Below, piece by piece: positions 22,823-27,473 of a stretch of DNA of 64,000 bases. Source of the DNA: Paludisphaera borealis (GTDB lineage: Bacteria; Planctomycetota; Planctomycetia; Isosphaerales; Isosphaeraceae); NCBI RefSeq assembly GCF_001956985.1, contig NZ_CP019082.1, forward strand, positions 7,192,001-7,256,000. Direction: 5' to 3'. Each line of letters opens with the position of its first letter. The stretch's first letter is position 1. Made by a program: the position numbers and the translations under genes. The notes beneath the pieces are model-generated. The model made no database searches and was not told the origin of the DNA. It saw only the letters and a list, made by a program, of their open reading frames with translations.

Positions 22823-24208
22823 TCAAAGGATGTAGCGGCTCAGGTCTTCGTCCTTGGCGACGTCTTCGAGACGTTGACGGACGATCTTGGCGTCGATGAC
22901 GATCCGTTCGCCGGCCCGTTCCGGGGCCTCGAAGCTGATGTCTTCGAGCACGCGCTCGAGGATCGTGTGCAGCCGCCGCGCGCCGATGTTCTGGGTCGAA
23001 CGGTTGACCTGGAAGGCGAGGTCGGCCATGGCCTCGATCGCGTCGTCGGTGAACGCGAGTTCGACCCCCTCGGCGGCCAGGAGCGCCTCGTATTGGCGGA
23101 GCAGCGAGGCGCGGGGCTCGCGAAGGATGCGCGCGAAGTCGTCGCGGGCGAGGTCGTGCATCTCGACGCGGATCGGGAACCGGCCTTGCAGCTCGGGCAT
23201 CAGATCCGACGGCTTGCTGCGGTGGAACGCGCCGGCCGCCACGAACAGCACGTGGTCGGTCTTGACCGGGCCATACTTGGTGTTGACCGTCGTCCCCTCG
23301 ACGATCGGCAGCAGGTCGCGTTGGACCCCCTGGCGCGAGACGTCGGGGCTGCGCGAGCCCTCCTCGCCGCCGGCGATCTTGTCGATCTCGTCGATGAAGA
23401 CGATGCCCGAATCCTCGGTCAAGGCGATGGCCGCCTGGTTGATCTTCTCGGGTTCGAGGAGGGCTTCGATCTCCTGCTGAAGGAGGATCGGGCGGGCCTC
23501 GCGAACGGTCATCCGGCGCGACTGGGACTGCTTGGGCATGATCTTCTCGAACATGCCCTGAAGATCCATCTCCATCTGTTCCATGTTGCCCGCGCCGAGG
23601 ATGGAGACGGGGGCCATCGGGCGGCCGGGGATGCTCAGCTCGACTTCACGGTCTTCGAGCTGGCCGTCGACGAGCTGGGCCTTGAGCTTGTCGCGGGTGC
23701 GCTGGCGGCGCTCGGCGGCCTCGTCGCTCTTGGGCTCGTCCGGTGCGCCCCAGGGCGTCTGTGGCGAGGACGAGAGCGACGGCGCCGGCCCCGGCAGGAG
23801 GAGGTCGAGAAGCCGCTGCTCGACCCGGACCTTGGCCTGCCCCTCGACCTTCTCGCGTTCGGCGTTCCGAACCAGGAGGATAGCGGCTTCAAGGAGGTCG
23901 CGGATCAGGCTCTCGACGTCGCGGCCGTAATAACCGACCTCGGTGTACTTGGAAGCCTCGGTCTTGACGAACGGAGCGCCGACGAGGATGGCCAGCCGCC
24001 GCGCGATCTCGGTCTTGCCAACGCCGGTCGGGCCGATCAGCATGATGTTCTTGGGCGTGACCTGCGGGCGAAGCTCGTCGGACAATTGCCGTCGCCGCCA
24101 TCGGTTCCGCAACGCGATCGCCACGGCGCGCTTGGCGTCGGCCTGGCCGACGATGTCGCGGTCCAGCTCGGCGACGATTTGCCGGGGCGTCAGCTCGTGC
24201 TCTGGCAC
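22823..24208 (-). CDS. hslU: HslU, ATPase subunit of the HslVU protease
   Basis: Read from the GTG at 24208 (GGAGGAACTCCC before it), giving 461 residues, the normal HslU length. It begins [18 protein letters not shown], has Walker A GPTGVGKT at 59-66, the [19 protein letters not shown] pore region with the GYYG-type pore loop, an I-domain, Walker [10 protein letters not shown] and the C-terminal helix ending in RYIL, whose last residues insert into HslV and activate it. A longer reading back to 24733 is only the shadow of hslV. The hslV stop lies inside hslU by 19 bases, so the two are translationally coupled. Role: unfolding of substrates for the HslV peptidase in the cytoplasm. Confidence 0.96.
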
Positions 24209-24738
24209 GGGAGTTCCTCCACCGTCAGATGGGTGTTCGTGTAGATGTCGATGCCGCCGGCGATAGTCAGCGACTCGCGCACGATCTCCGACGCCGAGAG
24301 GTTCGAGTGAGCCAGGAGCGCCCGGGCGGCGGCCAGGGCGTAGCCGCCCCCCGAGCCGGTCGCCAGCACGCCGTCGGTCGGCTGGATCACGTCGCCCGCC
24401 CCGCTCAACATCAGGCTGAAACGCGAGTCGACGACCAGCAGGACGGCCTCCAGCCGCCGAAGCACGCGGTCGGTCCGCCAGAGCTTGGCCAGCTCGGTCG
24501 CCGCCCTCGGGACGTTGTTCGGGTAGTCCTTCAGCTTCGTCTCGAACCGCTCCATGAGCGCGAAGCCGTCGGCCGCCGAGCCCGCGAAGCCGACGATCAC
24601 CTGACCGTCGAGCAGCTTGCGGATCTTGACGGCGTCGGCCTTCATCACCTGGGTCCCCAGGGTCACCTGACCGTCGCCGCCAATGGCGACCTTCCCCCCC
24701 CGGCGCACCGAGAGGATCGTCGTTGCATGCCACTTCAA
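24190..24738 (-). CDS. hslV: HslV, peptidase subunit of the HslVU protease
   Basis: A proteasome-beta-like threonine peptidase. The catalytic threonine is the first T of [11 protein letters not shown]; the [21 protein letters not shown] and [15 protein letters not shown] blocks are standard HslV. The start is uncertain: a TTG at 24738 preceded by GGGGGA eight bases upstream gives MKWHA before the threonine, the short propeptide expected for the family, and I prefer it. An ATG at 24774 would add 12 residues of no family character and has no well-spaced ribosome binding site. It heads the hslVU operon and overlaps hslU by 19 bases. Confidence 0.93.
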
Positions 24739-25151
24739 AGCACTTTCCCCCTGGTTGCCGGCGTTCGACCTCATCCCCTCGCCCTCGTCTTCAACCAGAC
24801 GACTTGAAGCCCGAGGATCGCTTTTTTCCAACCCGCGGGATCATCCTGCGAGCATACTGCTCCGCCCCAGCCGTGCCAAGCGAGGCGGAACGGCTCGGGA
24901 GTCGCTCTCCAAATCGAGACGGCCCCCCCGCCCCGGAAACGAACTGGGGCAACTCGTAGTAGATTCAAGATGGGACGTACTCCCTTCTCCTGGGGTCGCT
25001 CCGCGCTCGTTGGAAATTCGGTTGCAGTAGCAGGCGTGGGCGCGCCTCGGTCGATCTTGAAAACCCGCGCGGACGAATCGTCATGATGCCTGGGGAACAC
25101 CCGACCTCATGAAAATGGGAGTGCCGAGGAGTCGCGCGGGCGGCCTCCGAA

Positions 25152-25244
25152 TACGAGCCCGAAGCGCCAGCGAGTGCATTGTTTTGCGTTTGCTGACTCG
25201 GCCCCCCGGTCGAGGAATTTACTCGCTTGCGCTTCGGGCTTGTA
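25152..25244. repeat. Paired hairpin repeat, copy A
   Basis: Two 24-base arms face each other: 25152-25175 (TACGAGCCCGAAGCGCCAGC plus GAGT) and 25221-25244, the reverse complement with two mismatches, around a 45-base centre. Copies of the same arm pair occur at 31596-31670 and 47275-47370. Confidence 0.9.
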
Positions 25245-25361
25245 TTTCACTCCTCGATCGTCCCGCAGCCGGTCCCACAAGCTATTTTCAGAGCAATCAG
25301 TCATGCCCTCAAGGGCGCACCCATCCTGATGAAAATGGGGGCTTGCGGTCGACCGGGTCCG

Positions 25362-25447
25362 GTAGGGGCACCCCTTGTGGGTGCCCGGTTCGTTTCACGC
25401 CGACCGCTCACGCTCGGCGATCGGGCACCCACAAGGGGCGCCCCTAC
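25362..25447. repeat. Long inverted repeat with GTAGGGGCACCCCTTGTGGG arms
   Basis: Arms of 26 bases at 25362-25387 and 25422-25447 are reverse complements with one mismatch, around a 34-base centre. This arm sequence, reading roughly 'GTAGGGGC-CCCCTTGTGGGTGCCCG', is a type of dispersed palindrome I have seen in several bacterial phyla; no gene is associated. Confidence 0.85.
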
Positions 25448-25484
25448 GGCAAACCACAGACCGGAATTTTCATGGCAAACCCGC

Positions 25485-25827
25485 GCGAACGAACCCAATC
25501 ACCCAGGACCAGCCGGGGACCACGGCTGGGCGAGCGACGACCGACGGCCGGGGTCCGAAACCGAGCTTTCGGCGCGAACGAAGCCAATCCGCCCTCATTC
25601 CCTAACATTCTATTTAACAATGAGTTACAACTCACAATAATGGATTCGCCGAGGCGCGAACGAACCCAATCGCGAGCCCGCGCCAACGCCCCGGAGACAG
25701 GCGTGGAGCGTCCAGCGGGAGGATCGTTCCAGGTCGAACGAAGCCAATCGCGCCCGGGTCTTGGGGGCTGCCTCGGGGCGCGGTTCGACGCCGCGCGGGG
25801 GTGGAATCGGCGCGAACGAACCCAATC
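25485..25827. repeat. Five-unit spaced array of GCGAACGAA(C/G)CCAATC
   Basis: The 16-base unit occurs at 25485-25500, 25574-25589, 25656-25671, 25734-25749 (first two bases TC instead of GC) and 25812-25827. Start-to-start distances are 89, 82, 78 and 78 bases. Units 1, 3 and 5 read GAACCCAATC; units 2 and 4 read GAAGCCAATC, so the variant alternates. The spacers are unrelated to each other by eye, unlike spacers bounded by long CRISPR repeats, and one (25600-25645) is strikingly AT-rich. Confidence 0.8.
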
Positions 25828-25853
25828 ACGCGGGTGCCACGGCTCGGGTCGAC

Positions 25854-27473
25854 TCAACGCGCGACGCGGTCGCGCGGCCCGGAATCGATCGCGGCGCGCG
25901 GGGCGGGCGCGGGCTCGGAGGGCTGTGAACGCAACGCCGCCCGCTCGGCGGCCTGGGAGGGGGTGAACTGGTAGGGCAGCGCCGCGAGCTGGTTCGTGAA
26001 CCGGAGAATCCGGACGCGCCGCACGGGCTTGCCCGATCGTTCGACCCAGAAGTCGCCGAGGGGCTTGCAGCTCTCGAACCACTGGTCGTAGAAGCTGAGC
26101 GGCGTGTAGTCGTCGTTGATCATCACCAGGACGCCGTCGCGCCCGACCCACTGCTCGGGCTCGCTCCAGAAGGCGAACCCTCTGGGGTCGTCGAGGTTGT
26201 AGCAGACCACGGGCCGCTTCATCGCCGTGGCGTGCGCGATCTGAGCGCTCATGTACCAGTTCCGCGTGAAGATAAACGCGCGCGGGTCGTCGAGAATCCC
26301 GAGCCGGTCGAGCCGGTCGGCGATCTGGTCCCAGCCGTACGAGTCGATGGTGGGGTCGGTCCGCCTCGTGAGCACGCCGAAACCGCCGGCTTCTCCGCGC
26401 TGGAGCCAGCCGAAGCGATACTCGGAGACCGCGACCGCCAGCAGAACCAGCGAGAAGCACGCCGCGGCGTTCAGCTTGCGACAGGTCCGTGAAGGCAGTG
26501 CGAGGCTCTGATTCGCCAGGTTGCGGCCGAGGATCGGGAACAGCGAGACGAGCCCCACAAGCCCCCAGTGCGGCAAGACCGGCCGGAAGCAGGCAACCGC
26601 CGTGAACACGCCCAGCGGCAGGGCGCAAAGGCAAAGGGCCAGCCGCTCATGTTCCGTCTTCAGCTCGTTCCAGCGCCGGGCCAGTCGCCAGCCGATCGCG
26701 ATCAGGGGAAGCCAGATCCAGGGGAAGAAATAGGCCGCCTGGGCTCCCAGGGCGCCCAGGAGGTAGTCGAGGCGAAAGGCCGGGCCGACGACCGCCCTCT
26801 TCCCCTGAAACGCGAACGAAGCCCAGCCGTTGGATGCGTTCCAGACGATCACCGGACTGAAGATCGCCAGCCCAATCGCGATCGCCAGGTACGGCCCGGG
26901 CTCGATCAGCCGTCGCCGTTGCGTCGGGCGGAGGAGCAGGAAGAGAACCGTCCCGGCAGGCAGGAAGACCGCGTGGTACTTGCTAAGCATCGCGCCGCCC
27001 CACGCCAGGCCGACGCAGGCCCAGAGGCCCAGCCGCCTCGGCTCGTCGATCGCCAGGCTCAGCCGGTCGATCGTCAACAGCCAGAAGAACAGCAGCGGAC
27101 CGTCCGGCAAGGCGAACGTCGAGGCGGCCAGGCCGTAATAGCCGGTCAGGTTCAAGGCGAGAGCCGCGTAGAATCCCGCCCAGGCCCCGAACCACCGCCC
27201 GGCGATCCGTCCCATCAGCCAGGTCGACCCCGCGAACAGCAGCACGAACCCCAGGCGCAACGCCAGCTTCGAGGAGACGTCGCCCATTCCAAACAATCCA
27301 AACATCTCGACCCATGCGACCATCGGCGGGTGGTCGTAATAGCTGGGCGCGGGATGCAGGGCGTAGAGGAAGTGGTAAGCTTCGTCGTTCCCCAGTCCCA
27401 GGAACGCCGCGGCGGCGAGCCGGATCATGGTCGAGACGACGATCAGGAGGGCCAGGGCACGCTTGGGGGTCAT
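25854..27473 (-). CDS. GT39-family membrane glycosyltransferase
   Basis: The ATG at 27473 (AAGGA seven bases upstream) is preferred to a TTG at 27596. The 539-residue product is a multi-pass membrane protein of the ArnT/PMT type: first helix at ~4-22, then the catalytic extracytoplasmic loop GNDEAYHFLYALHPAPSYYD followed by HPPMVAWVE, with the acidic pair typical of the GT-C fold, and ten or more hydrophobic segments up to ~370, then a soluble C-terminal domain. Such enzymes transfer a sugar from a polyprenyl-phosphate donor to lipid or protein outside the cytoplasmic membrane; donor and acceptor are unknown. It is a single gene with repeats directly downstream. Confidence 0.9.
   Translation of the reverse strand: MTPKRALALLIVVSTMIRLAAAAFLGLGNDEAYHFLYALHPAPSYYDHPPMVAWVEMFGLFGMGDVSSKLALRLGFVLLFAGSTWLMGRIAGRWFGAWAGFYAALALNLTGYYGLAASTFALPDGPLLFFWLLTIDRLSLAIDEPRRLGLWACVGLAWGGAMLSKYHAVFLPAGTVLFLLLRPTQRRRLIEPGPYLAIAIGLAIFSPVIVWNASNGWASFAFQGKRAVVGPAFRLDYLLGALGAQAAYFFPWIWLPLIAIGWRLARRWNELKTEHERLALCLCALPLGVFTAVACFRPVLPHWGLVGLVSLFPILGRNLANQSLALPSRTCRKLNAAACFSLVLLAVAVSEYRFGWLQRGEAGGFGVLTRRTDPTIDSYGWDQIADRLDRLGILDDPRAFIFTRNWYMSAQIAHATAMKRPVVCYNLDDPRGFAFWSEPEQWVGRDGVLVMINDDYTPLSFYDQWFESCKPLGDFWVERSGKPVRRVRILRFTNQLAALPYQFTPSQAAERAALRSQPSEPAPAPRAAIDSGPRDRVAR

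Follow-up and report, generated by a model that had tools for sequence, protein, structure and literature searches.

Evenly spread, helically phased repeat arrays in Paludisphaera borealis: candidate sites for an architectural DNA-binding protein

Background

Several families of short sites organise bacterial chromosomes, among them matS, parS, KOPS and the SlmA sites. Phased direct repeats beside an AT-rich or palindromic core are known from plasmid iteron arrays and from lambda attP, and the Planctomycetota, the phylum of the organism studied here, are noted for unusual nucleoids. The dispersed REP elements bind gyrase and IHF, and insertion of IS110-family elements into them has been reported (PMC1525189). 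Within the IS110 family the target is picked by a guide RNA (PMC11208160, PMC11187229). For lac loops, fits gave 11.08 and 11.60 bp per turn in vivo versus about 10.5 bp for DNA free in solution (PMC1762422). A study on Nus factors stated that its own survey left non-coding RNAs out of consideration (PMC5725501).

Here we describe a repeat family for which no description was seen among the titles and abstract openings examined in the open-access PMC literature. The starting point was a five-unit array in a stretch of 64,000 nucleotides from Paludisphaera borealis (assembly G000, C1:7192001-7256000; hereafter the window), which a sequence-only reading had suspected to be part of a dispersed family.

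Results

The array in the window

Five units are located on the minus strand between positions 25485 and 25827 (Table 1), just as first described, with start-to-start distances of 89, 82, 78 and 78 bp and an AT-rich spacer containing TGAGTT-AC-AACTCA at 25621-25634. All five read GATTGG[G/C]TTCGTTCG on the minus strand; the exact 16-mer is present in four of them and unit 2 deviates by one mismatch, a final A. With the family matrix the units score 25.8–28.4 bits, whereas the next best site within the 64 kb reaches 16.0. Genes for PMT_2, a proteasome subunit, an AAA protein and a ROK protein form the neighbourhood. The boxA-like site is the sole one at ≤3 mismatches in the 64-kb window, and the stretch around the -10-like box, GTAGTAGATTCAAGATGGG, is comparable to GTAGTAGATTCATAGTGGG of the array at C1:6316605. 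Inserted hairpin repeats now part the array from its predicted boxA and -10-like box.

Table 1. Coordinates of the array and its surroundings in the window
Feature	Position	Strand	Remarks
Repeat unit 1 (array orientation), S=G	25812..25827	-	28.4 bits; 27-42 nt beyond the PMT_2 gene stop
Repeat unit 2, S=C	25734..25749	-	25.8 bits; 78 bp = 7 turns from unit 1
Repeat unit 3, S=G, left unit of the core pair	25656..25671	-	78 bp from unit 2
AT-rich palindromic core TAACTCATTGTTAAATAGAATGTTA	25603..25627	-	within the 82-bp spacer; core-logo centre +56 from left unit
Repeat unit 4, S=C, right unit of the core pair	25574..25589	-	by family matrix
Repeat unit 5, S=G	25485..25500	-	89 bp = 8 turns from unit 4
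Two hairpin repeats	25078..25476 (approximate)	.	arms 25150-25180/25216-25246 and 25343-25387/25422-25466; limits inferred from the duplicated half-unit on the flanks
Half-unit AAACCCGCGCGGACGAA	25061..25077	.	94% like 25477-25493 across the hairpins
boxA-like GCTCGTTGGAAATTCGG	25005..25021	+	3 mismatches to the family boxA
-10-like TAGATT inside GTAGTAGATTCAAGATGGG	24960..24965	+	45 bp ahead of boxA
PMT_2 glycosyltransferase-type gene	25854..27473	-	flanking context
Proteasome-subunit gene (PF00227)	24190..24708	-	flanking context; presumably hslV
AAA gene	22823-24208		context, after the proteasome-subunit gene; presumably hslU

A dispersed family of intergenic arrays

The genome of P. borealis (contigs of 7,497,544 and 111,833 bases, three 16S genes) contains 59 exact copies of the 15-mer GATTGGSTTCGTTCG and none of its reversal; at ≤2 mismatches there are 528 sites versus 11 for the reversed pattern. 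The repeated motif is 16 bases long; the family unit reads RATTGG[S]TTCG[W]TCG, and the matrix trained on P. borealis stretches has the consensus RATTGG[S]TTCG[W]TCGCGC, followed by AAA or TTT 20–22 bases in. At ≥10 bits this matrix finds 324 sites in 439 kb and 3 in the reversed sequence. The final set of 575 kb holds 423 unit sites and 80 arrays of 2–9 same-strand units; since these 575 kb take in 361 of the 528 sites with ≤2 mismatches, the list of arrays is incomplete, and 11 further ones were found later beside IS110 copies or boxA matches. One exact 15-mer lies on the plasmid contig, at C2:50202. Two- or three-unit sites near C1 positions 48672, 1676008 and 2807673 overlap one family of called ORFs (84–86% alike over about 1.3 kb, units 159–171 apart), and at C1:7162629 units with a period of 57 lie within a called gene.

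According to the gene calls, 72 out of 74 arrays with at least three units are intergenic, and within these 72 no gene, hence no transposase, is called. The DWVRSR translations to which the sequence-only reading had pointed fall in a listed ORF (25444-26634) spanning the window array; in view of the intergenic position of nearly all arrays we take them as incidental. The many intergenic copies are as in REP/BIME elements, but the unit matrix is not palindromic and gives no hairpin unit. The unit allows G or C at position 6 and A or T at position 11, neither position having a covarying partner, as would suit minor-groove contacts. Arrays resemble each other as diverged copies, their 3' module included (for instance 73% over 588 and 78% over 518 bases), with 87% identity in units versus 67% in spacers, a contrast which is partly circular because units were picked by the matrix. 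The window array and the one at C1:3686658 are such diverged copies (72% over 408 bases). These two are also among the three strictly alternating arrays: the G/C alternation noticed in the window (C,G,C,G,C) is real there, but as a family trait it fails, occurring in 3 of 52 arrays with at least five units versus 2.1 by shuffling (P 0.35).

Flanking gene orientations are mixed (24, 17, 17 and 13 in the four classes), and the most prominent neighbour families are IS110 (6 of 143) and DUF1559 (5 of 143). With mixed orientations and no dominant family beyond these two, regulation of host genes was rejected as the function. A replication-strand signal was rejected as well (r -0.01 between array strand and GC skew; z -1.5 for strand runs).

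Units are spaced by whole helical turns

From 324 neighbour spacings, 70 of 81–83 bp, i.e. the spacer holding the core, were set aside, and the 254 others of up to 180 bp were fitted. The best period is 11.20 bp (bootstrap 95% 11.06–11.34, R 0.65, n=254), and 0 out of 2000 jittered controls came as high; the spacing follows 11.19n + 0.3, that is, whole turns. This comes near the helical repeat that supercoiled DNA has in vivo and agrees with the in-vivo values fitted for lac loops (PMC1762422). Over the whole family spacings range from 20 to 172 with peaks every 11 bp, quite different from the near-constant spacers of a CRISPR; together with the lack of an Rfam match in the window this upholds the earlier view that the array is not CRISPR-like.

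Non-adjacent units on one side of the core keep the phase (R 0.53, offset 0.00), and unit pairs across the core are coherent too (R 0.56), with an offset of 0.23 turn; the spacer holding the core adds 0.3 turn. Homology among arrays is not the cause, since one array per homology cluster still gives R 0.61 and the 23 arrays without a homologue keep the phase (n=64, p 4e-11). In 11 held-out arrays (R 0.64, n=40, p 8e-8) 30 of 40 spacings deviate from whole turns by no more than 0.2 turn, versus 16 expected. Homologous spacers differ in length mostly by 0, about 11 or about 22 (579 intervals from 253 array pairs, which are not independent of each other), and among changes of at least 4 bases 132 of 201 are within 1.7 of a multiple of 11.2.

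The core of the 81–83-bp spacer, TAANNCNTT...AANGNNTT(A/G), has its centre of symmetry at position 56 counted from the left unit (based on 70 cores), with TAANNCNTT and AANGNNTTA as inverted halves. Among 54 single-core arrays, 50 have a C at position 6 of the unit that follows the core. Base-pair covariation was sought in 31 cores and none was seen.

A boxA and a -10-like box beside the arrays

At a cut of ≤4 mismatches to GCTCTTTGACAATTCGG, a boxA is found opposite to the GATTGG strand and 3' of the last unit in 53 of the 74 arrays with at least three units, while five control readings of the same flanks gave a single hit in total. It resembles the boxA of the organism's own rRNA operons (GCTCTTTGACAATCCGA ahead of and GCTTTTTGACAATTCGG after 16S). 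About 30–45 bp ahead of it stands a -10-like box, GTCG-TANA(T/C)T, whose invariant A and T follow in part from the seed of the alignment, [TC]A..[CTG]T, while the flanking letters do not. The 53 arrays have boxA downstream of a predicted promoter on the presumably transcribed strand. Within one mismatch boxA occurs 56 times in the genome (control: 2): 41 matches have an opposite-strand unit ≤900 bases downstream, 6 are at rRNA operons, 2 are near units in another layout and 7 are without a unit.

From these signals we infer that the arrays are transcribed in P. borealis. The sequence-only reading had likewise supposed transcription of the window array, but on the opposite strand: as boxA and -10-like box are on the plus strand, the RNA would carry the reverse complement of GATTGG. 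For 49 predicted transcripts no excess folding was found (z -0.27, antisense -0.16, 12 shuffles each). Rfam gave no match in window positions 24800-26000 at E≤1 and none at gathering score in 14 loci. A conserved RNA fold was rejected as a feature of the family, given these 49 transcripts and the 31 cores without covariation.

Occurrence in related genomes

With a sequence-only unit-core-unit model built from 45 sequences, matches at E≤0.001 were obtained in 9 of 59 relatives. They comprise every genome of the genus (six, with 24–65 matches each and 65 candidates scored per genome), two sister-genus genomes (13 and 3) and one other genome (1). The exact 15-mer is likewise present in 9 of 59. 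So the suspicion of a dispersed family holds, both within P. borealis and beyond. Two units 78–92 bp apart were looked for in 84,980 species genomes, which yielded 38 stretches: 32 in P. soli, 3 in Planctomycetales MAGs, 2 in one Isosphaeraceae MAG and 1 in Massilia, which was discarded as a false hit (an 18-bp tandem repeat).

Loci of strain SH-PL62 have a period of 11.20 (R 0.71), dominated by 90-bp spacings. P. soli does not show it (best period 9.25, spacings mostly 82 and 90), since most of its loci consist of one unit-core-unit element measuring 82 or 90 bp. At the same cut boxA is rare in relatives: 3/30 in SH-PL62, 4/41 in P. soli, 5/12 in another species, 1/4 and 0/5 in two further genomes (G004, G001) and 0/3 in the sister genus; a variant boxA is found in 9 of 40 SH-PL62 flanks. 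Twenty-four protein clusters flank elements in at least two genomes, and a shared regulator gene beside conserved loci was not found, as none of the 24 recurs in more than three genomes. Element loci turn over between species. Yet for 8 of 22 loci in SH-PL62 a flanking gene family recurs beside an element locus of P. soli, and orientation is kept in 5 of 6 adjacent syntenic cases. The exception is the locus of the window, between the PMT_2 and proteasome-subunit genes, where the element is inverted in P. soli.

Several variants were seen besides. In elements of the 90-bp type from P. soli and SH-PL62 (for example L051, L043, L118) an inverted unit, recognised by eye, often lies about 8 bp after the left unit and before the core, and in some P. 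soli elements two units overlap at 10 bp. SH-PL62 has elements on a plasmid contig (G002:C2:24220 and 85882). At G025:C1:3705939-3706073 six exact units repeat in tandem every 24 bases, an arrangement that the arrays do not have. Two Planctomycetales MAGs (L187, L223) have a unit pair 84 bp apart and a boxA-like GTTCCTTGACAATTCGG about 230 bases on. A 6744-base IMG/VR contig filed as viral (L224), possibly bacterial DNA, carries one unit-core-unit element of 79 bp.

Even spread along the chromosome

When all array evidence is pooled, the chromosome has 97 loci, one per about 65 kb (median interval 67 kb). Their intervals have a CV of 0.60 versus 0.985 for random placing, and 3 are shorter than 20 kb versus 21.9 expected. 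Restricted to three complete exact-pattern lists, the count is 82 loci with a CV of 0.70 (P 0.0003); the single 15-mer list with 40 loci is not significant (CV 0.79, P 0.08; 0 intervals <20 kb versus 4 expected). In SH-PL62 the core-model matches, with one hand-entered position per locus and two plasmid matches excluded, make 78 loci with a CV of 0.66 and 2 intervals <20 kb versus 16.4 expected. A non-random distribution of this kind is shared with chromosome-organising site families. Recombinational loss of close repeats could in principle yield it too, but is disfavoured because a control repeat, an intergenic hairpin sampled by the first 100 of its 112 matches (66 loci, 0–6.10 Mb), is not evenly spread (CV 1.21; 11 intervals <20 kb versus 12.6 expected); over the same stretch the arrays have a CV of 0.64 and 3 such intervals versus 17.8.

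An IS110 element and a second repeat

An IS110-family element is present in 17 near-identical copies (G000:C1 146354 to 6508703) which sit within units: 13 of 16 visible right junctions read (C/G)CCAAT and the other three have one mismatch, the 17th lying beyond the sequence covered. In its 5' non-coding region stand ATTGGCTT and CGCGAAGGAAC, possible target-guide stretches. The hairpins of the window (25040-25480) belong to a second dispersed repeat family, with CCCGAAGCGCCAGCGAGTGAA occurring in 112 exact copies genome-wide; 13 of 66 of its loci are ≤1.5 kb from an array locus versus 2.6 expected.

Discussion

Units, core, the quantisation of spacings in steps of 11.2 bp, the association with boxA and the even spread are features of the DNA itself. 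The family suggests a chromosome-organising system. Our preferred explanation, to which we give somewhat less than an even chance, is that the elements are evenly spread, helically phased sites for a putative architectural DNA-binding protein, transcribed in P. borealis. A sequence-specific protein would bind the direct-repeat units on double-stranded DNA; because the units are a whole number of turns apart, bound copies would come to lie on one face of the helix, where they may bridge, loop or wrap the DNA around the AT-rich core, itself probably held by a dimer. Since about 100 elements are spread evenly, one per about 65 kb, the likely job would be in chromosome architecture, as domain anchors or boundaries, or in segregation. 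Most elements of P. borealis would be situated in a non-coding transcription unit with the order -10-like promoter, boxA, array, and boxA may shield RNA polymerase from Rho termination across untranslated, protein-covered DNA. Against this explanation count the rarity of boxA in relatives, the P. soli spacings without the 11.2 period, the P value of 0.08 for the 40-locus list, an array strand unrelated to GC skew, and the inversion at the window locus in P. soli.

It is unlikely, if worth serious thought, that these are selfish or neutral MITE- or REP-like repeats, spread by copying and without host function, whose phasing stems from a past transposase complex. The arrays are indeed diverged copies of each other, 3' module included, loci turn over between species with the window locus inverted in P. 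soli, and other repeats and an IS110 lie in or beside arrays. However, units are better conserved than spacers (in part a circular argument), diverged arrays keep the phase, the spread is even, flanking families are shared and orientation mostly kept between species, and no transposase is linked save that of IS110, which targets units rather than carrying them. Clearly improbable to us are non-coding RNA genes whose product, for instance a sponge or guide, has several copies of GCGCGAWCGAASCCAAUY. A promoter-like box and a boxA on one strand, shared with the rRNA operons of the same genome, favour them; but the predicted transcripts are no more structured than shuffles, the cores lack covariation, restricting one position to G or C makes more sense for duplex DNA than for single-stranded RNA, the 11.2-base step has no obvious RNA rationale and boxA is mostly absent in relatives.

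Replication or partition sites, iteron-like phased repeats by an AT-rich stretch and parS- or incompatibility-like in action, deserve little credence: in their favour are the helically phased direct repeats around an AT-rich core and the copies on plasmid contigs in P. borealis (C2:50202) and SH-PL62 (two matches on C2), but there are about 100 copies across the chromosome, and no replication or partition gene family is in the top 25 of 171 neighbour families. We see a very small chance for attachment sites of a lambda-type tyrosine recombinase, with palindromic core and arm-type direct repeats. While the inverted core halves flanked by direct repeats at a fixed phase offset and the P. soli inversion resemble such sites, a recombinase family is not among the 25 most frequent neighbour families, and so many sites would shuffle the chromosome, whereas 5 of 6 syntenic cases keep their orientation. 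Practically no chance is left for a guide array of the CRISPR or TIGR kind. The repeats, the dissimilar spacers between them and the boxA as a leader recall one, but spacings of 20–172 go in 11-bp steps, Rfam is without a match in the window and, at gathering score, in 14 loci, nearly a hundred copies exist and the spacers are divergent paralogs.

A bolder form of the architectural explanation, about which we are rather doubtful, would be a chromosome-wide lattice of about 100 evenly spaced transcribed nucleoprotein anchors, every one of them a helically phased array for the same architectural protein, kept open by rRNA-style antitermination, with the genome recording an in-vivo helical repeat of 11.2 bp for the stretches between bound sites. 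If true, one genus would possess an abundant chromosome-organising site system detected from sequence alone, regular placing of architectural sites by a bacterium would become testable, the in-vivo helical repeat of DNA would have an evolutionary read-out, and boxA would extend from rRNA to a non-coding locus family. The arrays would also provide an RNA-guided element of the IS110 type with a natural set of targets.

Comparison with known systems

With the REP/BIME elements of E. coli and Pseudomonas the arrays share many intergenic copies and insertion by the IS110 family (PMC1525189); they differ in being phased direct repeats around an AT core, with boxA and even spread, instead of palindromic hairpin units. 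Whole-turn spacing, at about 11.1–11.6 bp in vivo, is shared with the Lac and Ara repression loops (PMC1762422), but the arrays have 2–9 sites at about 100 loci, without a linked regulator. Like plasmid iterons and lambda attP they combine phased direct repeats with a core, and are set apart by copy number and dispersal, a Rep or Int gene not being seen alongside. The letters of the array boxA match those of the P. borealis rRNA operons, as for boxA-antiterminated rRNA transcripts; here, however, neither rRNA nor CRISPR follows downstream, and the boxA copies form a family linked to the elements. As in the chromosome-organising site families, a short dispersed motif is presumably bound by a protein, whereas the arrays are multi-site, phased, provided with a palindromic core, distributed chromosome-wide and associated with a predicted transcription unit.
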